From the NCBI GenBank assembly GCA_946887105.1, contig CAMPKJ010000142.1, positions 1 through 12,617 of the forward strand: a stretch of DNA of 12,617 nucleotides. Direction: 5' to 3'. Origin of the DNA: an uncultured Acidobacteriota bacterium (lineage in GTDB: Bacteria; Acidobacteriota; Thermoanaerobaculia; Gp7-AA8). A program made the translations under genes and the position numbers. Of the stretch, positions 1,195-11,272 are shown in pieces. The notes beneath the pieces were generated by a model. The model was not told the DNA's origin, searched no databases, and was given only the letters and a program-made list of their open reading frames with translations. Every line of letters begins with the position of its first letter. The stretch's first letter is position 1.

Positions 1195-1360
1195 GGGACG
1201 ACGAGAGGCCTCCGGCGGCCGGGCCACGGGCCCGGACCCGCTGGTTGGCCCAGCCTCCACGACACGGTGTGGTTCATGGGAGAGCAGTGTCGTGGAGGCT
1301 AGGCCAACCAACGGGGTCTGGGGCCGATGGCCCCAGCCGCCGGAGGCCTTACGTCGTCCC
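1195..1360. repeat. 166-bp imperfect palindrome (long hairpin)
   Basis: Two arms of about 71-74 bases (1195-1265 and 1287-1360) are inverted copies around a 21-base loop (1266-1286). Perfectly paired blocks, from outside in, are 1195-1203/1352-1360 (9 bp), 1206-1219/1336-1349 (14 bp), 1242-1250/1302-1310 (9 bp) and 1252-1265/1287-1300 (14 bp). Between them are small mismatches and indels. It fills nearly all the space between the stop at 1188 and the GTG start at 1393. It is too long and lacks the U-tract of a simple terminator, so it is more likely a palindromic intergenic element, though it may still stop or stabilise transcripts. Confidence 0.8.
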
Positions 1361-1392
1361 CTTTGGCAGCCTTCTTTCATAGGACGACCGCC

Positions 1393-3807
1393 GTGTTCCG
1401 TTCGAAGTTTGTTCGCGCCGTCGCCATCCTCGCCGGGATGGCCGCGGTCATGTACCTCCTGGTCAGCCTCTTTCTCCCCTCCTCGCGCCAGCTGATCTTC
1501 GGTGTCGACAAAAACAGCGGCAAGGTGCGCATGGTCCAGAACCGCGTCACCTACCTTCCGCCGCACCAGTTCTACCGCCTGCGGTTCGAGAAGCGGCAGG
1601 GATCGGCGCAGCGCGACGGCTTCGTGCGCATCCTCTCGAAAGAGCGCGTGCCGGTCACCATCAGCTACCGCCTCCGGTTCAGCATCCCCGAAGAGCGCAT
1701 CCCTGACGCGCGGCGCCTCGTGCGCGAAGGATGGAGCGCGTGGATCCGCGCGCGCGTCGCCGAAGCGGTCTCGGCGATGACCGAGCAGGTTGCGATCGAG
1801 GAACTGCTCTCGCCGACCTCGGCCTTCGCGGCGCGGCGGAATGACCTGCGGCAGAACGTCGCGCGCCATCTGGCCCGCAGCGGTCTGCGCGTGACCGCGT
1901 TCGAGATCGCGCGCATCGAGCCCGACCGCAAGGCGCTGCTCGCGTACAAACGCCAGGAGCTCCGCCGCGAAGCGCGCGGCGTGGCCGGACGCGTGGCCAT
2001 CTTCGCCATCGATGGCGCGGACTGGGAACTGATCTCCGAGCTCTCCGCCGACGGCCGCATCCCGAACCTCCGAGCGCTGACCCTCGGCGGCACGAGCGCC
2101 ACGCTGCAAACCATCCAGCCGACCGTCTCGCCGCTGGTCTGGACCAGCGTCGCCACAGGCCTGCCTCCCGATCGGCATGGCGTGGTCGACTTCATCGACG
2201 CGCGCACCAAGCGTCCCGTCGACTCGCGGACGCGGCGCACGCCGGCGGTGTGGGACATCGCGGAGGCGTTCGGCCGCCATGCCGTGATCGTGAACTGGTG
2301 GACGGGATGGCCGGCGCGCCCGGAGAGCGCCACGATCTTCGACGCGCCCGTGACCTTGCAACGCGGTGCGGTCCATCCGGCGCAGTACGGCCAGCGCGTG
2401 GCGCAGCTCGAGGTGCCGGCGGCGACGGTCGGCTCGCCGCAGGTGCGCCGCTTCCTCAACATCAGCGACGCCGAGTTCAACACTGCGGTCACGAGCGGCG
2501 GTCCGATGGATCCGATCCACGTCTTCCGCGACGTGCTCGCGAAGACCTGGAGCGATCACCGCGTCGCGCTCAGTCTCTATCAACAGCAGGAGCCGTTGCT
2601 GCTGATGGTGAACTATGAGGGCACCGACGCGGTCAATCATCTCTTCGCGCCGTATCACCCTCCGTATCGCGAGGGGATCAGCCAGTCCAGCTTCCGCAAG
2701 TTCTGGCCGGCGGTGGCGAACTACTACTCCGAAGTCGACCGGCTGATCGGCGAATGGATGAAGGTGCTCAGCGACGACACGACCGTGATCATCGTGTCGG
2801 CGCATGGATTCCGCTGGGGAAAAAACCGGCCGCGCGTGCAGCCGGTGGGCCGCGCCGCGCTTTCCGATCACCGCAATCCGGGCCTGTTCATCGCGTACGG
2901 CAACCACGTCGCACCGTCGCGCGGCAGCCGTACGATCTCGCTCTACGACATCGTCCCGACCGTGCTGGCGGTGATGGGATTGCCGCCGTCGACGGAGATG
3001 CCGGGACGGCACGCGGGCTGGGTGTTCCGCGACATCGAACCGGTGTCCTCGGTGCGCGTGATCAGCTACGACGAATTCTTCCCGCTGAACACGCTCGCCA
3101 GCGGGCTTGCGGTCAATCAACAGCAGTACACGCAGAAGCTGCAGTCGATCGGCCACCTCGTCGATCCATCGCGCATGCAGCCGGTGTTCGAGAACGAGCA
3201 GCCGCAGGTGGCGAATGCCACGCCGCTCGCGCCCGCGCAATGGGGCGCGTACGCGTACTACAACAATCTCGGCATCGAGTTGCGCAAGCAGGACAAACTC
3301 GAGGAGGCGGTGAACGCGTTCCAGGCGGCCATCAATCGCAATCCCTCGCGTCCCGTGCCGTATCTGAACCTGGCCATGACCCTGTTCGACCGGCAGCAGT
3401 ACACCGCCGCGGACGACGTGTTCATCATGGCCGTTCAGCGCGGACTGCCGAACGCGGAGCAGTGGTTCGTCGACTACGCCGCGCTCTATCGCTCGCGCAA
3501 CATGACCTCGCGCGCGATCACGCTCCTGTACAAGGCGAAGCAGATCTTCCCGCAGTCGTACCTGATCGCGGCGAACCTCGGATCGGCGCTGGCGCAGTCG
3601 GAGCGCTACACGGAGGGGATCGCGGAACTGGAGCGTGCGCTCACGCTGCAGCCGTCGTCGACGCTGGTGCTGAACAACATCGGCAACTACCTGGCGCGAA
3701 AGAACGACTACGCCCGGGCGCTCGATTTCTGGAACCGCTCGCTGAGCATCGATCCGCGCCAGCCGGAGATCCGGCAGGCAGCGGACGCCGCGCAGACGCA
3801 TCTGTAG
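1393..3807 (+). CDS. Membrane-anchored SPFH-like / type I phosphodiesterase / TPR fusion protein
   Basis: An 804-residue protein. Residues 7-28 form one membrane helix. About 30-190 resemble an SPFH/prohibitin-type domain: strands, then a helical ERIPDARRLV...RVAEAVSAMT section with FEIARIEPDRK. About 200-560 are an alkaline-phosphatase-superfamily phosphodiesterase: FAIDGAD with Asp207, a likely Ser/Thr nucleophile in TVSPLVWTSVATG (244-256), GTDAVNH with Asp412 and His416, and SDHRNPG with His493. About 640-800 are tetratricopeptide repeats (NNLGIELRKQDKLEEAVNAF and later copies). The usual Asp-His motif reads SAHGF (Ala470, His471), so one expected metal ligand is missing. The GTG at 1393 is chosen because AGGA (1381-1384) sits 8 bases upstream; the ATG at 1327 lies inside the palindrome arm. 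The catalytic domain probably faces the periplasm. The substrate is unknown. Confidence 0.8.
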   Translation: MFRSKFVRAVAILAGMAAVMYLLVSLFLPSSRQLIFGVDKNSGKVRMVQNRVTYLPPHQFYRLRFEKRQGSAQRDGFVRILSKERVPVTISYRLRFSIPEERIPDARRLVREGWSAWIRARVAEAVSAMTEQVAIEELLSPTSAFAARRNDLRQNVARHLARSGLRVTAFEIARIEPDRKALLAYKRQELRREARGVAGRVAIFAIDGADWELISELSADGRIPNLRALTLGGTSATLQTIQPTVSPLVWTSVATGLPPDRHGVVDFIDARTKRPVDSRTRRTPAVWDIAEAFGRHAVIVNWWTGWPARPESATIFDAPVTLQRGAVHPAQYGQRVAQLEVPAATVGSPQVRRFLNISDAEFNTAVTSGGPMDPIHVFRDVLAKTWSDHRVALSLYQQQEPLLLMVNYEGTDAVNHLFAPYHPPYREGISQSSFRKFWPAVANYYSEVDRLIGEWMKVLSDDTTVIIVSAHGFRWGKNRPRVQPVGRAALSDHRNPGLFIAYGNHVAPSRGSRTISLYDIVPTVLAVMGLPPSTEMPGRHAGWVFRDIEPVSSVRVISYDEFFPLNTLASGLAVNQQQYTQKLQSIGHLVDPSRMQPVFENEQPQVANATPLAPAQWGAYAYYNNLGIELRKQDKLEEAVNAFQAAINRNPSRPVPYLNLAMTLFDRQQYTAADDVFIMAVQRGLPNAEQWFVDYAALYRSRNMTSRAITLLYKAKQIFPQSYLIAANLGSALAQSERYTEGIAELERALTLQPSSTLVLNNIGNYLARKNDYARALDFWNRSLSIDPRQPEIRQAADAAQTHL

Positions 3808-3812
3808 CCGGG

Positions 3813-3887
3813 TTCCTCGGTTCCTCGGAGTTCCTCGGGTTCCTCGGAGTGGTCCGGCCCCCTCTCTCCCGAGGAACTCCGAGGAAC
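3813..3887. repeat. Octamer repeat cluster TTCCTCGG with inverted copies
   Basis: Four direct copies of TTCCTCGG start at 3813, 3821, 3831 and 3840; two inverted copies (CCGAGGAA) start at 3869 and 3879. Segments 3820-3839 and 3868-3887 form a perfect 20-bp inverted repeat with a 28-base loop. The cluster begins 5 bases after the stop at 3807 and ends just before the promoter at 3898. It could act as a terminator-like hairpin for the phosphodiesterase gene, but there is no U-tract. The irregular 8-10-base spacing of the direct copies suggests slippage or a repeat family rather than a designed operator. Confidence 0.85.
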
Positions 3888-3897
3888 TCAGTGACGC

Positions 3898-3926
3898 TTG
3901 ACACACTCGACTGAGACCACTACGCT
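3898..3926 (+). promoter_or_regulatory. Sigma-70-type promoter of the fur-FTR1 operon
   Basis: A perfect -35 hexamer TTGACA (3898-3903) is followed by a 17-bp spacer and a weak -10, TACGCT (3921-3926; 3 of 6 matches). Transcription would start near 3933, leaving a leader of about 34 bases. The spacer holds an ACTGAGAC half-site (3910-3917), identical to the left end of the palindrome downstream. Confidence 0.6.
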
Positions 3927-3937
3927 AAATCCGCTAC

Positions 3938-3952
3938 TGAGACTCAGTCTCA
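3938..3952. promoter_or_regulatory. Predicted Fur box (7-1-7 palindrome)
   Basis: TGAGACTCAGTCTCA is a perfect 7-1-7 inverted repeat. It matches the known Fur consensus layout TGATAATnATTATCA, with G/C substitutions at two positions per half. It lies just downstream of the predicted transcription start and 14 bases before the fur ATG, a typical position for repression. A second copy of its left part, ACTGAGAC, lies at 3910-3917 within the promoter spacer, 26 bases upstream. Autoregulation by the Fur-family product is the simplest reading. Confidence 0.7.
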
Positions 3953-3966
3953 AATAGCGCCCGCAG

Positions 3967-4467
3967 ATGGCTCACGTCGACCGCGAGATCTCACGCTTCC
4001 AGGAGTTCCTGCAACAGCAGGGTCAGAAGCTCACCTCCGAGCGCACCGCGCTCGTGCGGGAGATCTTCGCCATCCACTATCACTTCGAGGCCGACGAGCT
4101 TCTCTTCAAGATGAAGGAGAAGAACGTCAAGATCTCACGCGCCACGGTCTACCGCACGCTGGAGCTGCTGGTGAAGTCGGGCATGGTCCGCCGCGTCCAC
4201 CTCGGCGAAGACCACTACCACTACGAGCACGTCAGCGGGAACTCGCACCACGACCATCTGATCTGCACCGTCTGCGGCGGCGTGATCGAGTTCCACGACG
4301 AGGCGCTCGAGCAGCGCCAGCGCGATATCTGCGAAAAGAAGAAGTTCACTCCCACGTTCCACAACCTTCAGATCCTCGGCGTCTGCGATCCGTGCAGGCG
4401 CAAAGGACAGACCCCGGAGTCGCCGGATCGCGTGCGCATGATCCAGGCGACCAAGCTGAGGAAATAG
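3967..4467 (+). CDS. fur: Fur-family metal-responsive transcriptional repressor
   Basis: A 166-residue cytoplasmic regulator, slightly longer than typical Fur because of a basic C-terminal tail. Residues 1-85 form the winged helix, with recognition helix SRATVYRTLELLVK at 57-70. The dimerisation and metal domain follows: HHDHLICTVCG (His94-95, Asp96, His97, Cys100, Cys103), His132, and GVCDPCR (Cys140, Cys143), the two CxxC pairs of a structural zinc site. These residues fit Fur better than a distant paralogue, but Zur or PerR cannot be excluded from sequence alone. Iron sensing is favoured because a Fur-type palindrome precedes the gene and an iron permease starts 3 bases after its stop. The ATG has only a weak ribosome binding site (GCAG). 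It is the first gene of a six-gene operon running to 8372. Confidence 0.9.
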   Translation: MAHVDREISRFQEFLQQQGQKLTSERTALVREIFAIHYHFEADELLFKMKEKNVKISRATVYRTLELLVKSGMVRRVHLGEDHYHYEHVSGNSHHDHLICTVCGGVIEFHDEALEQRQRDICEKKKFTPTFHNLQILGVCDPCRRKGQTPESPDRVRMIQATKLRK

Positions 4468-4470
4468 CCG

Positions 4471-5238
4471 ATGCTCCAGGCCCTGATCATCGTGTTTCGC
4501 GAAGGATTCGAGTCGTTTCTCACCGTGGCCATCATCTTCGCGTACCTCCGGAAGACCGGCCGCGACTGGCTCCGTCCCGCCGTCTGGTGGGGAATCGGCG
4601 TCGCGGTGATCGTCAGCGCGATCCTCGGCTACTGGCTCAAGAACGTGAGCAATCAGCCGTTGTGGGAAGGAATCCTGGCGCTGGTGGCCGCTGTGCTCGT
4701 GGCCACGTTCGTCATTCACATCTGGCGCGTCGCGCCGACGATGAAGCGCGAGATGGAAGCGAAGCTCGAGGCGCGCGCGTCCATCGAATCGGCGCCGTGG
4801 GCGTGGGTGGGCATCTTCTTCTTCACGGTGCTGATGATCGCGCGCGAAGGGATGGAGACGGTGCTGCTCCTGATCCAGGTACGCCAGGGCAACTTCTGGC
4901 TCGGCTGCGCGATGGGTCTCGCACTGGCCGCCGCGATGGCCTGGGTCTGGGGTCATTACGGCCATCGCGTGAACCTGAAACGCTTCTTCCAGGTCACCGG
5001 CCTGTTCCTGCTGCTGTTCACCGTACAGATCCTCTTCTACGCGATCCATGAATTTTCGGAAGCGGAGCTGCTTCCGAACAGCGAGGCCATCCACATGGCC
5101 ACCGAGCCGTACTCCGCCGACGGCCGTTACGGCCTGTGGATCATGTTCGGGATGGTGGCGATCTGCGCGCTCTGGCTGGCCGGAGTGACGGCGCTCGATC
5201 GCATCCGTGCGAACGGCCGAGGTCCGATCGAAGCATGA
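4471..5238 (+). CDS. FTR1/EfeU-family high-affinity iron permease
   Basis: A 255-residue inner-membrane protein with about seven hydrophobic segments. Two REGxE motifs, the iron-binding signatures of the FTR1 family, lie in helices 1 and 4: REGFE (10-14) and REGME (125-129). An acidic/His patch HEFSEAE is at 193-199. In yeast Ftr1p and bacterial EfeU, the REGxE glutamates coordinate iron during transport. Length fits EfeU (about 275 residues) without extra periplasmic domains. The gene starts 3 bases after fur, and its TGA overlaps the next ATG (ATGA at 5235-5238), so it is almost certainly co-transcribed. The usual periplasmic partners EfeO and EfeB are absent from the window; flavin-handling genes occupy the downstream positions. 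Confidence 0.92.
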   Translation: MLQALIIVFREGFESFLTVAIIFAYLRKTGRDWLRPAVWWGIGVAVIVSAILGYWLKNVSNQPLWEGILALVAAVLVATFVIHIWRVAPTMKREMEAKLEARASIESAPWAWVGIFFFTVLMIAREGMETVLLLIQVRQGNFWLGCAMGLALAAAMAWVWGHYGHRVNLKRFFQVTGLFLLLFTVQILFYAIHEFSEAELLPNSEAIHMATEPYSADGRYGLWIMFGMVAICALWLAGVTALDRIRANGRGPIEA

Positions 5239-6107
5239 CCAACGCGGCGTTCATCGTCGCGCTTGCACTGGCTCCCCTCATTCACGCGCGGTACGCGATG
5301 GGGACCGTGTGCGAAGTCGCGGCGCACGATCCGGCAGCGATCGAGGCCGCATTCGCGGAAGCGGCGCGCATCGAATCGATGCTGAGCACGTGGAGCGACG
5401 ACAGCGAGCTCGCGCGGGTGAATCGCGGCGAGGCAACGCCGTCGCGCGAGCTGCAGGCGCTGCTCGAGCAGACGCTCGACTGGTCGCGAAAAACGCAGCG
5501 CGCCTTCGACCCGCGCGTGAAAGCGCTGGTCGAGGTCTGGAGAACGCGTCAGGACGGGACACTGCCGTCGTCCGATTCGATCGCGAACGCGTTGCAGCAG
5601 CCGCAGATCGAAGAAGGCGCGTTCGGCAAGGGCTACGCGATCGATCGCATGCTCGCGTCGCAGCCCGCGGTCACGATGATCAACTTCGGCGGACAGATCG
5701 CCGTGCGCGGTCCGCTCGAAGTGAGCGTTGCCGATCCTGCCGATCGCGCGAAGCCCGTCCTGGCCTTCGAGCTGCGCGATGCGTCGATCTCCACGAGCTC
5801 CGGCTCGGAGAAGACGTTCGCCGTCGATGGGCGGCGCTTCTCCCACATCCTCGACCCGCGCACCGGCGAGGCGCTGCCGCCGCGCGGTTCGGTTTCGGTG
5901 ATCGCGCCCGAGGCGCTCACCGCCGACATCCTGTCCACTGCTCTCTACGTGATGGGCGAAGACGACGGTCTTCGCTGGGCCGATGCCAACGGTGTCGCGG
6001 CCATCTTCATCACGCCACACCGGCAAATCCGATTGTCGGCAGCGGCCCGTGAACACGTGCGCGGACTGCGGCTGCTCGATCGAAATTTCAGATTGAAGGA
6101 TCGATGA
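5235..6107 (+). CDS. apbE: FAD:protein FMN transferase (ApbE family)
   Basis: A 290-residue exported enzyme that transfers FMN from FAD to a Ser/Thr of target proteins by a phosphoester bond. A signal peptide is visible (hydrophobic residues 4-16, Ala-type cleavage near 18) with no lipobox, so it is probably periplasmic rather than a lipoprotein. Family blocks in order: YAMGT (20-24), STWSDDSELARVN (51-63), FDPRV (91-95), FGKGYAIDR (130-138), NFGGQ (150-154), ISTSSGSEK (185-193), HILDPRTGE (204-212) and TADILSTAL (229-237), covering the FAD and Mg sites. The ATG at 5235 is chosen because it overlaps the permease stop and gives a clean signal peptide; the frame is open upstream. The likely substrate, an FMN_bind protein, is two genes downstream. 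Confidence 0.92.
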   Translation: MTNAAFIVALALAPLIHARYAMGTVCEVAAHDPAAIEAAFAEAARIESMLSTWSDDSELARVNRGEATPSRELQALLEQTLDWSRKTQRAFDPRVKALVEVWRTRQDGTLPSSDSIANALQQPQIEEGAFGKGYAIDRMLASQPAVTMINFGGQIAVRGPLEVSVADPADRAKPVLAFELRDASISTSSGSEKTFAVDGRRFSHILDPRTGEALPPRGSVSVIAPEALTADILSTALYVMGEDDGLRWADANGVAAIFITPHRQIRLSAAAREHVRGLRLLDRNFRLKDR

Positions 6108-7441
6108 TGTTCAAACGTATCGCGGGCTTCGTGCTCGCCATTCTCACCACCACCTCCCTCTTTGCGCAGGAAGCCGCCGATCTGGAGCGCCGTCTGCGCG
6201 ACCTCGAACAGAAGATCGCCGCCATGCAACAGACCCCCGATCTCGCGGAGATCCGCCGCCAGATCGAAATCCTCGGGCAGGAAATCGAGGCGCTGAAGAC
6301 GCGCCAGACGGAGAAAGCGGTCGTGGCCGACACGGAGCAGTACGGACTCGGCGCGGCGGCCTCGAAGGTCTACAGCGTCGAGTCGGGCATGTCGTTCGGC
6401 GGCTACGGCGAAATGCTCTACGAGAACTACGCCGCCAGGACCGACGCCGAAGTGCGCACCACGAACAAGGACAAGTTCGACATGCTGCGGGGCGTCCTCT
6501 ACGCCGGCTACAAATACAACGACCGGGTGCTGTTCAACTCCGAGATCGAGTTCGAGCACGGCAACACGGCTCTCGGCGGGGAAGCCTCGGTCGAGTTCGC
6601 GTACCTCGACTTCATGGCTACAAAGAATGTCGGCGTGCGCACCGGACTGCTTCTCGTGCCGATGGGCCTGGTCAACGAGAAACACGAGCCGACGACGTAC
6701 CTCACCGCGCGACGCTCCTTCACGGAGAACGCCATCATCCCCACGACGTGGCGCGAGATGGGCGCGGGCGTCTTCGGCGAGCACGGCCCTCTCTCGTGGC
6801 GCGCATACGCGGTGAACAGCATCCGCGGCGACCGCTTCAGCGCCGGCGGTGTTCGCGGCGGCCGCCAGAAGGGAGCCAACGCGCAGATCGAGGACATCGC
6901 CCTGACCGGCCGCCTCGACTACACGCCGATCGAAGGGACCACCATCGGCGGCTCGTTCTTCTCCGGCAACACCGGCCAGGGGAACAGCGTCGCGGGCGAA
7001 GTCGTGGAAGGCAAGCTCACGATCGTCGACCTGCACGGCGAGGCGCAGTTTCGCGGCGCGACCGTACGCGCGCTCTGGGCGCAGGCCACGCTCGATGACG
7101 TCGCGCAGCTCAACGCGATCCAGAACCTGACCGGCAACCGCTCGATCGGTGAAGAGATGGGCGGCTGGTATGTCGAGGCGGGCTATGACCTGTCGTCGCT
7201 CCTGCCGCGCTTCGGCGAAGCGTCGCTGACGCCGTACGTGCGTTACGAGCAACTCGACACGCAGCGCAGCGTGCCCGCCGGCTTCGCCCGCAATCCGGCC
7301 TCCGAGTTGACGGTCTTCACGTACGGTCTCCAGTTCCGCCCGATGCCGCAGACGGTCATCAAGTGGGACTACCAGAACACCGACAACGAAGCGGGCACGG
7401 GGCTCGACCAGTGGAACATCGGCGTCGGCTACATCTTCTAG
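6104..7441 (+). CDS. Outer-membrane porin-like beta-barrel protein with N-terminal coiled coil
   Basis: A 445-residue protein. Residues 1-22 form a signal peptide (basic MMFKR, hydrophobic core, cleavage after SLFAQ). About 24-68 are a heptad-rich coiled coil (LERRLRDLEQKIAAM, IRRQIEILGQEIEALKTR). From about 90 to the end, alternating aromatic/polar strands with Gly-rich turns match an outer-membrane barrel, ending in GVGYIF with the C-terminal Phe typical of BamA substrates. This layout resembles OprO/OprP-type or carbohydrate porins with N-terminal coiled coils, but I cannot assign a substrate. Two ATGs occur (6104 and 6107); 6104 overlaps the apbE stop as ATGATG. The operon context suggests passage of iron or an iron chelate. 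That role is inferred, since no TonB box or plug domain is visible. Confidence 0.85.
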   Translation: MMFKRIAGFVLAILTTTSLFAQEAADLERRLRDLEQKIAAMQQTPDLAEIRRQIEILGQEIEALKTRQTEKAVVADTEQYGLGAAASKVYSVESGMSFGGYGEMLYENYAARTDAEVRTTNKDKFDMLRGVLYAGYKYNDRVLFNSEIEFEHGNTALGGEASVEFAYLDFMATKNVGVRTGLLLVPMGLVNEKHEPTTYLTARRSFTENAIIPTTWREMGAGVFGEHGPLSWRAYAVNSIRGDRFSAGGVRGGRQKGANAQIEDIALTGRLDYTPIEGTTIGGSFFSGNTGQGNSVAGEVVEGKLTIVDLHGEAQFRGATVRALWAQATLDDVAQLNAIQNLTGNRSIGEEMGGWYVEAGYDLSSLLPRFGEASLTPYVRYEQLDTQRSVPAGFARNPASELTVFTYGLQFRPMPQTVIKWDYQNTDNEAGTGLDQWNIGVGYIF

Positions 7442-7962
7442 TTGCGTGTGCGGCCATCGCGCTCGCGGCGCATGCGCGCGTCTTCATGACGCAGCAGCAG
7501 GCGCTCGCGAGCGCGTTTCCCGCGGGGACGAAGGTCACGCGCCAGGCGCTGTTCCTCACGCCCGAGCAACGCGCCATGGCGCTGAAAGAGAGCGGGATCG
7601 AGTTCGACGATCGCATGATCGTCCGCTATGTTGGTCGGGTGGCGGGGGGCACGGCGGCCGATCGCGTGATCGGCTACGCGTACTTCGATACGCATCGCGT
7701 GCGCACGCTGCCCGAGACGATCATGATCGTGGTCACGCCGGACGCGAAGGTGCAGAAGATCGAGATCCTGTCGTTCGACGAGCCGCCCGAGTATCAGCCG
7801 AAGCCGCGCTGGATCGATCAGTTCCGCGGACGCAAGCTCGATGACGACCTCTCGCTCAAGCGCGCCATCCGGCCGATCACCGGCGCGAGTCTGAGCGGCC
7901 GCGCGATCGTGAACGCATCGCGAAAAGTGCTGGCGCTGCATCGCGCCATCGGAAATCCATGA
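7363..7962 (+). CDS. FMN_bind-domain protein, predicted covalently flavinylated and exported
   Basis: An open frame of 199 residues. Residues 20-38 look like a signal peptide (RRR, then LHLLVACAAIALA, AHA cleavage site). About 85-190 match the FMN_bind domain (DRVIGYAYFDTHRVR, then ETIMIVVTPDAKVQKIEIL). It ends in PITGASLSGRAIV, where Thr173 fits the [S/T]GA[T/S] flavinylation motif recognised by ApbE. The start is uncertain. The only ATG upstream of the signal-like segment is at 7363, which overlaps the porin gene by 79 bases; the next in-frame ATG, at 7486, would lose the export signal. No GTG or TTG lies in frame between them. The stop overlaps the next ATG (ATGA at 7959-7962). It probably carries electrons in the periplasm between the membrane cytochrome and an acceptor. 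Confidence 0.82.
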   Translation: MGLPEHRQRSGHGARPVEHRRRLHLLVACAAIALAAHARVFMTQQQALASAFPAGTKVTRQALFLTPEQRAMALKESGIEFDDRMIVRYVGRVAGGTAADRVIGYAYFDTHRVRTLPETIMIVVTPDAKVQKIEILSFDEPPEYQPKPRWIDQFRGRKLDDDLSLKRAIRPITGASLSGRAIVNASRKVLALHRAIGNP

Positions 7963-8372
7963 GTAGGCTTCAACTCCTGTGGCTGCACGTTTCGGTCGCG
8001 CTGACGGCGGCCACAGGAGTCGTGTTCGCGGTGATGAAGTACTTTCTCGAGAGCACCGACGAGTTCGCGGTGGCCAACCATCCGCTGCAACCGCACATGC
8101 TGGCCGCGCACGTCGTGATCGCGCCGGTTGCGCTGTTCGTGCTCGGCTGGACGTTTTCGAATCACATGCTGCCGAAGTACCGCTTCAGCGACGAGCATCG
8201 CAAGAGCGGCGTCTCGTCGATGCTGTTGCTGGTGCCGATGACGCTGTCCGGATATCTGCTGCAGATCGCGACGAACGAAACACTGCGCGAGGCCATGGCC
8301 GTGACGCACTGGATCTCATCGGGATTGTTCGTGCTCGGCTACGCCGTGCACTTAGTGGAGTGTAAACGGTGA
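7959..8372 (+). CDS. Four-helix cytochrome-b-like membrane protein (DUF4405-like)
   Basis: A 137-residue integral membrane protein with four hydrophobic helices at about 5-27, 46-66, 84-104 and 113-133. Histidines sit in or beside helices 1, 2 and 4 (His10, His46, His51, His117, His131), the arrangement expected for b-type heme ligation in small cytochrome-b or DUF4405-type proteins. Such proteins are known to pair with FMN_bind proteins in extracytosolic electron transfer, passing electrons from quinol to the flavin. The ATG overlaps the FMN_bind stop, and no other start is near. The last six codons (VECKR and stop) lie inside the large palindrome at 8352-8518, so the C-terminus may have been rewritten by that element. 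The heme and quinone roles are inferred from family, not seen directly. Confidence 0.75.
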   Translation: MSRLQLLWLHVSVALTAATGVVFAVMKYFLESTDEFAVANHPLQPHMLAAHVVIAPVALFVLGWTFSNHMLPKYRFSDEHRKSGVSSMLLLVPMTLSGYLLQIATNETLREAMAVTHWISSGLFVLGYAVHLVECKR

Positions 8373-8518
8373 ATCGGTACCACCTGGCTTGGTCTCGACG
8401 CCGTGAGCTTCGTTGCGCCTTCTCGACATAGTCACCGCTATGCCTGCGTCGGCGCGCCTCGCTCACGACGCCGATCCCGGCGCCATCTGGTCCCGATTCA
8501 CCGTTTACACTCCACTAG
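8352..8518. repeat. 167-bp imperfect palindrome between convergent genes
   Basis: Arms 8352-8419 and 8451-8518 (68 bases each) are inverted copies. The outer 25 bp (8353-8377/8493-8517) pair perfectly; inner pairing includes 8402-8408/8461-8467. The 31-base apical part holds its own small stem, CATAG (8427-8431) with CTATG (8438-8442). The left arm contains the last codons and stop of the 7959-8372 gene; the right arm ends exactly on the gltX stop codon (8515-8517). It probably serves as a bidirectional transcript end, and its size and stem suggest an inserted palindromic element. No U-tract is present. Confidence 0.85.
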
Positions 8519-9976: not shown

Positions 9977-10378
9977 ATGCGCGACGAACGCGGATTTTCG
10001 CTGGTCGAAATCATGGCCGCGTTTCTGATCCTGACGTTCGTCATCACCACGTCGCTGTGGGCGTTTCTGGAGCGCAACAAACGGCTGCAGCAAGCCAGCG
10101 AGATCATCCTCGCGTACCAGGCGCTCGCGAATGAGGCGGAGTTCCGGCGGCGGGTGCCCTACCAACAACTGGAAACGGCATCCGACCTGTTCAACGAGAC
10201 CAATCTCGAGTTGCTGGCGCCGCTCGCGCCGTTCAAGGCACGGGTCAAGGTGGAGCTCGTGAAGACCGGCGTCAGGCACGTGACCATGACCGTGCTCTGG
10301 AAGAACGACGAGCGGGAGGCGCGACTGGCGATCATCCGCGTCGACACGGGTGAGCCGCTCGGGAGGACGTTTTTTTGA
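9977..10378 (+). CDS. Type IV pilin-like pseudopilin (PilV/GspI-like)
   Basis: A 133-residue prepilin. The short basic leader MRDERG is followed by FSLVEIMAAFLILTFVITTS: prepilin peptidase would cut after Gly6, Phe7 becomes the methylated first residue, and Glu5 of the mature protein is present. The hydrophobic helix spans about 7-30, then a polar helix and a small strand-rich head. Length and order point to a minor pseudopilin of a type II secretion or type IV pilus system, closest in style to PilV/GspI. It acts in the inner membrane and periplasm as part of a pilus tip or pseudopilus. Its stop overlaps the start of the next gene (TTGA at 10375-10378). No ATPase, secretin or major pilin gene is in the window. 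Confidence 0.85.
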   Translation: MRDERGFSLVEIMAAFLILTFVITTSLWAFLERNKRLQQASEIILAYQALANEAEFRRRVPYQQLETASDLFNETNLELLAPLAPFKARVKVELVKTGVRHVTMTVLWKNDEREARLAIIRVDTGEPLGRTFF

Positions 10379-10896
10379 GGCGCAGCCGCGGATTCACGCT
10401 GCTGGAAGTGGTCATCGCCATGGCCATCTTCGGAGTCTTTCTCATCGTTGCGTTCTCCCTCACCTCGGACATGCGCAAGTGGGAGAAGCGGCAGCCGGTC
10501 AACTTCCTGCGCAATCCGAACGTCATCTCCACGATCGCGCGCATGCGGCGGGACGTGCTCGACATCCGCGTGAACGGCAACGAGCCGGTTTACCTGCTCA
10601 CCCATGATGGCTACGAAATGGGACCGAAGACCCTGATCCTGCAGACCATCCTGGACAACGGGCAGCACGTCATCATCTGGGATCTCTCCGAGCCGGGCGT
10701 GGCACGCCGCCTCGACTACAAAGCCGGTGAAAAGTCCGAGTGGGTTGCGCGCGGATTACCGCCCGATTTCACGGCCGGCGTCGACATCGACGCGGTCGAA
10801 TTCCCGGATCGCGTTTACGGCGTACGCGTCAAAGCGAAGGACAGCAATGGACAACTGGTCATCGATCAGATACTGCAGCCGCGCGCGCACCAGTGA
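10375..10896 (+). CDS. Type IV pilin-like pseudopilin (GspJ/PilW-like)
   Basis: A 173-residue prepilin starting at TTG. The start is supported by GGGAGGA (10361-10367), 7 bases upstream, and by the TTGA overlap with the previous stop. Leader MRRSRG is followed by FTLLEVVIAMAIFGVFLIVA, a textbook prepilin N-terminus with cleavage after Gly6 and Glu at mature position 5. The remaining 140 residues are a strand-rich globular head (THDGYEMGPKTLILQTILD, VIIWDLSEPG, AVEFPDRVYGVRVKAKD). Its larger size and second place in the cluster fit GspJ or PilW, the minor pseudopilins that pair with GspI/GspK or PilV/PilX at the tip. Its 3' end overlaps the next gene by about 50 bases. Confidence 0.85.
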   Translation: MRRSRGFTLLEVVIAMAIFGVFLIVAFSLTSDMRKWEKRQPVNFLRNPNVISTIARMRRDVLDIRVNGNEPVYLLTHDGYEMGPKTLILQTILDNGQHVIIWDLSEPGVARRLDYKAGEKSEWVARGLPPDFTAGVDIDAVEFPDRVYGVRVKAKDSNGQLVIDQILQPRAHQ

Positions 10897-11272
10897 GCGG
10901 GGCTTCGCGCTGGCGATGGCGTTGATCATCGCCACGCTTTACTTCGGCCTGATCGGGCTGATGATGGTCGACGCCTCGCGCGAGCTGGCCGAGGCGCGGC
11001 GGTTTCGCGCGCGCATCGTGGCGTTGACGCTCGCCGAAAACGGCGCGGAGCGCGCGGCGCACATGATGGTGGGCGGAAGTCCGATCCTGACCATCGACGA
11101 AAAGGATTGGCAGGGAACGATCGTCGGGAGGCGCGAGCAGAAGGGCGCCACTTTCAGGATCTTCGCAACCGCCACGGCGACCGGCGTCGTGGAAGCGAAG
11201 GCGGGCGTGGAAGTGGACGGCGTGATCGTCGGGAACACCGTGCGCATCGACTACACGCGCCACACGCAGTGA
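10847..11272 (+). CDS. Pseudopilin-associated PilX/GspK-like protein
   Basis: A 141-residue protein with a basic leader of about 19 residues (MDNWSSIRYCSRARTSERG), then FALAMALIIATLYFGLIGLM, a prepilin-like hydrophobic helix. Mature position 5 is Met rather than Glu; loss of that Glu is known in GspK and PilX-type tip subunits. After the helix come an ARRFRARIVALTLAENGAER helix and a strand-rich domain of about 80 residues, short for GspK, so PilX-like is preferred. ATG 10847 is the only nearby start in frame and overlaps the previous gene by 50 bases. The frame is open further upstream, but that part would be inside the second pseudopilin. The gene is followed 6 bases later by a strong hairpin, which closes the three-gene operon. 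Confidence 0.75.
   Translation: MDNWSSIRYCSRARTSERGFALAMALIIATLYFGLIGLMMVDASRELAEARRFRARIVALTLAENGAERAAHMMVGGSPILTIDEKDWQGTIVGRREQKGATFRIFATATATGVVEAKAGVEVDGVIVGNTVRIDYTRHTQ

Follow-up and report, generated by a model that had tools for sequence, protein, structure and literature searches.

A conserved flavin and cytochrome cassette beside bacterial iron importers is a candidate ferric reductase

Here we describe a six-gene operon in a 12,617-nucleotide stretch of DNA from an uncultured Acidobacteriota bacterium (assembly GCA_946887105.1, contig CAMPKJ010000142.1; the whole stretch is called the window below), which probably encodes an iron-starvation-induced, flavin-based ferric reductase cassette behind an iron importer of the FTR1 family. 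On one strand, the operon consists of fur, the FTR1 permease gene, apbE, a gene for a 16-strand porin, one for an RnfG-like FMN_bind protein and one for a four-helix membrane protein with conserved histidines, a cytochrome b candidate (cytb). The last four genes, apbE-porin-FMN_bind-cytb, are a conserved cassette that we found at 85 loci in six named phyla. That this flavin and heme module is tied to iron import is supported by promoters, neighbouring genes, gene fusion and phylogenetic profile.

In the mechanism that we propose, Fur would repress the operon under sufficient iron. When iron is short, the porin would let ferric iron or small ferric chelates into the periplasm, and the four-helix protein, with its two predicted bis-histidine b hemes, would draw electrons from quinol, with its NHPxQP face on the periplasmic side as the point of transfer. 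ApbE would attach flavin mononucleotide (FMN) to a serine or threonine of the FMN_bind protein, which would then carry electrons to Fe(III), and the resulting Fe(II) would enter through FTR1, perhaps by direct hand-over. In related bacteria, the same cassette may serve FeoB or a Fet-type system of FTR1 and ATP-binding cassette (ABC) components, with Fe(II) passing to whichever importer is present.

The six same-strand genes, given in the initial annotation as overlapping or 3 bases apart, are borne out by the open reading frames and their junctions, with one start codon revised. On the plus strand, fur (3967–4467) and the FTR1 gene (4471–5238) are 3 bases apart, and the junctions of FTR1 with apbE (5235–6107), of apbE with the porin gene (6104–7441) and of FMN_bind (7411–7962) with the cytochrome gene (7959–8372) each overlap by 4 bases. 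The longest FMN_bind frame opens with a GTG at 7363, but the GTG at 7411 is the more likely start because it results in a clean signal peptide (by eye), and the overlap with the porin gene is therefore 31 bases. The identities first assigned to Fur, FTR1, ApbE, the barrel and FMN_bind also hold, the barrel by AlphaFold2 and Foldseek and the others by Pfam. The Fur-family metalloregulator (166 residues) matches PF01475 (E 9e-32), and NCBIfam Fur equivalogs match below their cut-offs. The FTR1/EfeU-type permease (255 residues) matches PF03239 (E 5e-30; 105.1 bits against a cut-off of 25.3) and the EfeU family NF041756 (7e-39, below cut-off), and contains two copies of the REGxE motif that is important in FTR1 permeases (FREGFES and AREGMET). 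Neither EfeO nor EfeB is encoded beside the permease among the flanking genes scanned, setting the locus apart from EfeUOB systems, and among the 15 window genes scanned we found no ferroxidase gene and no reported P19 (FetP) domain.

The flavin-attaching enzyme and its presumptive substrate are both recognisable. ApbE, a flavin adenine dinucleotide:protein FMN transferase of 290 residues, matches PF02424 (E 1.2e-51; 176.2 bits against a cut-off of 25.6) and solved ApbE structures from E 4e-28, and its hydrophobic N-terminus resembles a signal sequence by eye. The secreted FMN_bind protein matches PF04205 (E 5.9e-5; 24.1 bits against a cut-off of 22), and its family profile retrieves RnfG from the PDB (9eri_G, E 4e-5). 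A serine or threonine occupies the predicted flavin acceptor position in all 81 ungapped rows of the family alignment (Thr in 72, Ser in 9), and the residue preceding the Gly-Ala pair is Thr or Ser in 65 of the 81, the window reading ITGAS. The ApbE motif is reported as D-x-x-[S/T]-G-A-[S/T], opening with an aspartate whose change to alanine is described as minor in effect (PMC12052999). At this opening position the window has Arg, and the 81 rows contain Arg 47 times, His 21 times, Lys three times and Asp only twice; since the reported D-to-A effects are minor, the FMN_bind protein is likely to be flavinylated despite the replaced aspartate. ApbE itself is dedicated to the cassette, because its orthologue is the sole ApbE found in the related genomes G001 and G002, and 9 of 13 relatives that bear FTR1 and lack the cytochrome have no ApbE. 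A second, divergent ApbE-family gene (E 1.5e-27) is convergent with the cassette in locus L016 (3424–4374), and members of the same sequence cluster occur in L027 and L036.

The match of the cytochrome candidate to Ni_hydr_CYTB (PF01292; E 3.4e-5, 24.1 bits) is below the cut-off of 30.1, and 12 of the 50 relatives in the alignment match the same family with E values of 0.01 or lower. An AlphaFold2 model (predicted local distance difference test, pLDDT, 95) shows four transmembrane helices, of which the second contains H51 and H69 and the last contains H117 and H131; a conserved NHPxQP loop lies between helices 1 and 2. In ungapped rows these four histidines are invariant (H51 in 85/85, H69 in 84/84, H117 in 83/83 and H131 in 82/82), and H41 is nearly so (82/83). 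Pairing of H51 with H117 and of H69 with H131 would give two stacked bis-histidine b hemes. Foldseek matched the model to no structure at E 0.001, the family profile matched no sequence of a solved structure, and structural likeness to superoxide oxidase and hydrogenase cytochrome b was within the chance range. DUF4405 (PF14358) does not match the window protein, whose model has four helices, and matches 2 of 50 relatives weakly (best E 0.0026). Scanned with E values up to 0.1, the proteins of the operon likewise gave no reported match to the MsrQ, NapH, PepSY and DsbD carriers (PF01794, PF12801, PF03929/PF16357 and PF02683).

Variants of this part of the cassette were also seen. In L005 (10058–11452) and L007 (7573–9024), the cytochrome and ApbE are fused in a single frame, called at 464 and 483 residues, respectively; an additional hydrophobic segment separates the two parts and would put ApbE in the periplasm. 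In L137 (5329–5868) and L138 (1796–2368), a membrane protein of 179–190 residues follows FMN_bind in the usual place of the cytochrome and is matched by neither the cytochrome model nor Pfam, which suggests that the cytochrome has been replaced there by another electron carrier.

The barrel protein (445 residues, with an N-terminal helical part) matches no Pfam family, and Porin_O_P is found in 7 of 50 aligned relatives. Its AlphaFold2 model (pLDDT 89) is a barrel of 16 strands, for which Foldseek returns general porins of the OmpF/OmpU/OmpM1 type, from E 6e-13 (Omp-Pst1); by sequence, the porin profile gives only chance-level matches to solved structures. The invariant columns include the acidic residues E147, E149, E164 and E195, whose conservation would fit cation passage. 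In L034, apbE and the porin gene share one frame of 751 residues, which could be an assembly artefact.

Across genomes the four genes are conserved as a cassette, most commonly in the order apbE-porin-FMN_bind-cytb. A contig scan gave 50 loci with the cytochrome family, 27 from Acidobacteriota, 8 from Planctomycetota, 6 from Gemmatimonadota, 3 from Verrucomicrobiota, 2 from Myxococcota, 1 from Latescibacterota and 3 unassigned. When these loci were searched by phmmer with the window proteins, which distant relatives may escape and with some contigs ending inside the cluster, 48 of the 50 had FMN_bind, 45 the porin, 40 ApbE, 10 Fur and 2 FTR1. The full set of 85 comprises the window and 84 other loci, all found through the cytochrome, so that L137 and L138 fall outside it. 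Loci L051–L080 (flanks of at most 1.5 kb; 19 of their genomes re-entered and the others were already in L001–L050) and five duplicates (L082, L084, L087, L090 and L100, equal to L033, L027, L043, L042 and L036) were dropped. In the class of G002, the cytochrome is present in 51 of 148 genomes, in one copy each. The genomes are mostly draft metagenome-assembled genomes of unstated completeness, making all counts of absence upper bounds.

Iron control of the operon, as proposed in the initial annotation, is supported by promoter sequences. A perfect 7-1-7 palindrome, TGAGACTCAGTCTCA, lies at 3938–3952, 14 bases 5' of the fur start codon. No other site in the window matches even when up to three mismatches are allowed, a setting under which chance would give 0.34 matches; by this operator the operon would belong to the Fur regulon. 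The identical box precedes fur in L001 and L002 and in the cassette-less loci L125, L131 and L132. We then scanned the promoters of 84 loci (L015 has no called cytochrome gene), 76 of which had enough upstream sequence, for the Fur-type pattern TGANANTNANTNTCA, requiring 8 or more of the 10 fixed bases and 6 or more of the 7 palindromic pairs. Boxes were present at 19 of the 76 cassette operons versus 2 of 332 other operon-first genes of the same loci (Fisher p 3e-13, a guide only, as the rows are related). Dinucleotide shuffles averaged 0.15 box regions over 20 rounds, with a maximum of 2, and the best of 60 permuted half-site patterns, which has most of its letters in common with the real pattern, reached 9. 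Nine of the 19 boxed cassettes are in loci with no detected iron gene, some on short contigs (L004, L007, L008, L017, L039, L042, L043, L044 and L045), so the cassette would appear to be under iron control even where no adjoining importer is visible.

Neighbouring genes point to iron import as well. Over the 85 loci, FeoB is a neighbour in 13 (in L050 only as a 70-residue fragment), FTR1 in 5 (the window, L001, L002, L088 and L091) and Fur in 20, of which 5 have neither FTR1 nor FeoB; DtxR stands alone in L038, a DtxR match 10 kb distant in L032 being left out of the count. Pfam confirmed the FeoA, FeoB and DtxR domains for representative loci. Of the 66 loci that show three or more upstream genes (L015 left out), 22, the window included, have Fur, FTR1, FeoA, FeoB or DtxR within five genes upstream or three downstream, counting from a list in which Fur and FTR1 were set beforehand and FeoA, FeoB and DtxR were added after being seen. 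Iron genes occupy 47 of 533 near slots compared with 1 of 335 far slots. The cassette tree covers 71 of the 85 rows, those with porin, FMN_bind and cytb, and comes from a quick, unrooted search that left 12 of its 68 inner branches with poor support. On this tree, linkage to FTR1 is found at three separate positions and linkage to FeoB at five, with at least nine changes between linked and unlinked states, a pattern that points to independent recruitment of importers beside the cassette.

In L088 the cassette is preceded by a fusion of FTR1 with an FtrD-like domain, a pair of FtsX/MacB-type genes (Pfam confirmed one, and the other was judged from sequence) and an ABC ATPase, an arrangement that is Fet-like, FetM being an FTR1-type protein. 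The DtxR label in this locus was rejected as a separate regulator, as it marks a Fe_dep_repr_C domain fused to the ABC ATPase (4939–6003); the fusion resembles a metal-sensing ATPase belonging to a Fet-type system, and the DtxR-query matches that L135 and L136 show near FTR1 may be of the same kind.

The initial annotation had joined the flavin module specifically to FTR1. Its tie to iron import stands and its exclusivity does not, with FTR1 near 5 of the 85 loci and FeoB near 13. Of the 148 genomes of the class, 25 carry FTR1, 6 of the 51 that bear the cytochrome versus 19 of the 97 that lack it, so there is no positive association between the two genome-wide, an outcome close to the lack of co-occurrence that the annotation had itself named as telling against it. 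We therefore reject a partnership specific to FTR1 as a general rule. Replacement of FeoB by FTR1 was also rejected for the relatives of the window, because G001 and G002 hold a strong FeoB elsewhere; indeed, all but G092 of ten genomes searched have a strong FeoB.

The site of the operon illustrates how separable its two halves are. Among 20 FTR1 surroundings examined, nine (L121, L122, L123, L124, L127, L128, L129, L131 and L132) carry fur, FTR1 and then gltX but no cassette; in L131 a single frame on the opposite strand separates FTR1 from gltX. Seven of the nine also have the phosphodiesterase and tetratricopeptide repeat (TPR) gene that lies upstream in the window, and these loci are the window's own syntenic site minus the four cassette genes. 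Searches of 11 gaps between FTR1 and the next gene with the four cassette proteins as queries found only chance-level matches (best E 0.14). In the 13 genomes searched of the 19 that bear FTR1 and lack the cytochrome, this FMN_bind family is absent from all 13 and ApbE from 9. The four genes thus seem to be present or absent as one block, separately from fur-FTR1. A tree of the flanks (12 of the 20 FTR1 loci plus L001, L002 and the window, L120 and L125 with few columns) separates the window, L001 and L002 (3 changes), whereas the cassette tree joins them. This difference suggests that the whole cassette was lost more than once, a simpler reading than gain, although neither tree is rooted.

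Such loci raise the alternative that the two halves share a Fur promoter and are otherwise uncoupled, the cassette feeding FeoB elsewhere or another iron-starvation task while FTR1 works alone. The nine cassette-less relatives, the separate FeoB of G001 and G002 and the lack of a genome-wide association between FTR1 and the cytochrome all fit this alternative. It has more difficulty with the separate FTR1 linkages of the window clade, L088 and L091 on the cassette tree, and with L137 and L138, in which an FTR1 gene is divergent from fur-apbE-porin-FMN_bind, and we consider it rather unlikely.

Several findings weigh against a ferric reductase dedicated to iron uptake. Of the 66 eligible loci, 44 have no neighbour from the five iron families, and a clade of 17 tree rows has neither an in-cluster apbE nor a detectable box, although all ten of its genomes searched carry ApbE elsewhere. 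A Fur-type box also precedes 11 of 12 cassette-less FTR1 loci (L120–L132 without L126), so that the box at the window, L001 and L002 belongs to fur-FTR1 whether the cassette is present or not; this slightly lowers our confidence in the explanation that we favour. The 44 loci would suit a respiratory or redox-stress chain, that is, a general extracytosolic electron outlet or protection against superoxide or quinone stress in place of assimilation, and related flavinylated chains are described as serving respiration (PMC8238504). The likeness of the cytochrome model to superoxide oxidase and hydrogenase cytochrome b would point the same way and is within the chance range. Such a role is improbable, because 19 of the 76 cassette promoters have Fur-type operators, including nine at loci where no iron gene was detected, and because the cassette adjoins Fur, DtxR, FeoA, FeoB and FTR1. 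An oxidative chain, in which Fe(II) would give its electrons to quinone by way of FMN and heme and Fe(III) would be delivered to FTR1 as ferroxidases do for yeast Ftr1p, is very improbable, since the same cassette lies near the ferrous transporter FeoB in 13 of the 85 loci and covalent FMN, with its low potential, is poorly suited to take electrons from Fe(II). FeoB imports Fe(II), and its linkage to the cassette favours the reductive direction, in which the cassette would act as a ferric reductase for the importer beside it.

The operon is flanked by the phosphodiesterase/TPR gene upstream and gltX downstream. The former (1327–3807) encodes 826 residues with a type I phosphodiesterase domain, a weak Band_7 match and TPR regions by Pfam, and is kept 5' of fur in relatives. 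Between it and the Fur box, repeated GTTCCTCGG-type units (3811–3887) hold a perfect 20-base inverted repeat with arms at 3820–3839 and 3868–3887. At the other end, a 36-base inverted repeat (8353–8388 and 8482–8517; 92% complementary, 93 bases apart) spans the cytochrome stop codon and extends to the gltX 3' end, and could be a mobile repeat or a terminator. Beyond gltX, at 9977–11272, are two synteny-conserved pilin-like genes with N-methylation motifs and a third frame without a Pfam match. No RNA families or tRNAs were found across the window, and its base composition (GC 0.62–0.68 throughout) gave no sign of transfer.

Many Acidobacteriota, Planctomycetota and Gemmatimonadota are uncultured and, to our knowledge, little is known of how they reduce ferric iron for uptake. 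We lean towards the view that the cassette represents a previously undescribed, multi-phylum class of assimilatory ferric reductase: a swappable set in which a small four-helix diheme NHPxQP cytochrome and an RnfG-like FMN carrier, mostly with a basic residue where the flavinylation motif would open with aspartate, are joined by a dedicated porin that keeps invariant acidic residues and by an ApbE of their own. Under Fur control, this set would work next to importers of the FeoAB, FTR1 or Fet type. If so, it would be a widespread route of ferric reduction in these three phyla, would add one more transmembrane carrier to flavinylation-based electron transfer and would mean that FTR1 and FeoB share one kind of reductant. 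ApbE would be predicted to act on a motif in which, for most members, Arg, His or Lys stands in place of the opening aspartate. The gene set had been called unusual, and this holds in part: among the open-licence matches listed, we found neither this class of four-helix cytochrome nor its porin nor the changed flavinylation motif, although the supplements of flavinylation surveys may include such clusters unnamed, whereas FTR1 beside an FMN-binding protein has been published.

One such precedent comes from a Gram-positive bacterium, Bifidobacterium breve. In its bfeUO-sifABCDE cluster an FTR1-type permease adjoins an FMN-binding protein described as a possible ferric reductase, and mutants of the cluster, and likewise of apbE, are reported as chelator-sensitive (PMC5449479). 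L088, with FTR1, two FtsX-type permeases and an ABC ATPase ahead of its cassette, is comparable. Unlike the window, that cluster includes BfeO, has neither cytochrome b nor porin as described, and has its apbE elsewhere (PMC5449479). Meheust et al. (2021) report 260 P19 clusters with an FMN-binding gene (PMC8238504); the P19-FTR1 clusters in that account, mostly Gram-positive and placed among clusters without a core transmembrane carrier, share with the window an FTR1 beside an FMN-binding protein and a proposed assimilatory iron redox role, whereas the window lacks P19 and adds ApbE, the porin and the four-helix cytochrome. The initial annotation took FTR1 to be paired, as a rule, with oxidising or cupredoxin-type partners and not with flavin modules, a premise that is out of date by these two reports (PMC8238504, PMC5449479). 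The same survey proposes MsrQ-like and PepSY-like systems with VIT1 as assimilatory iron reductases, which also combine a transmembrane carrier, a flavinylated protein and an iron transporter, but with other carriers (PF01794, PF03929/PF16357) and another transporter (PMC8238504). DUF4405 proteins, including FezC, which is tied to iron storage, are flavinylation-associated membrane cytochromes with conserved histidines as well, described with six transmembrane helices in contrast to the four of the window protein (PMC11334425). Campylobacter FetMP-FetABCDEF combines an iron permease, ABC permeases and periplasmic redox partners, comparable to the FTR1-FtrD fusion of L088, but its partners are thioredoxin-like, and the account describes no ApbE/FMN_bind/cytochrome/porin cassette (PMC10783030). 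A further likeness is with fungal reductive iron assimilation by Fre-Fet3-Ftr1, which likewise joins a ferric reductase to an Ftr1 permease and does so with different protein families. Fungal Fre reductases contain heme and flavin, and the FTR1 form of the cassette may, on the same leaning, be their bacterial counterpart.

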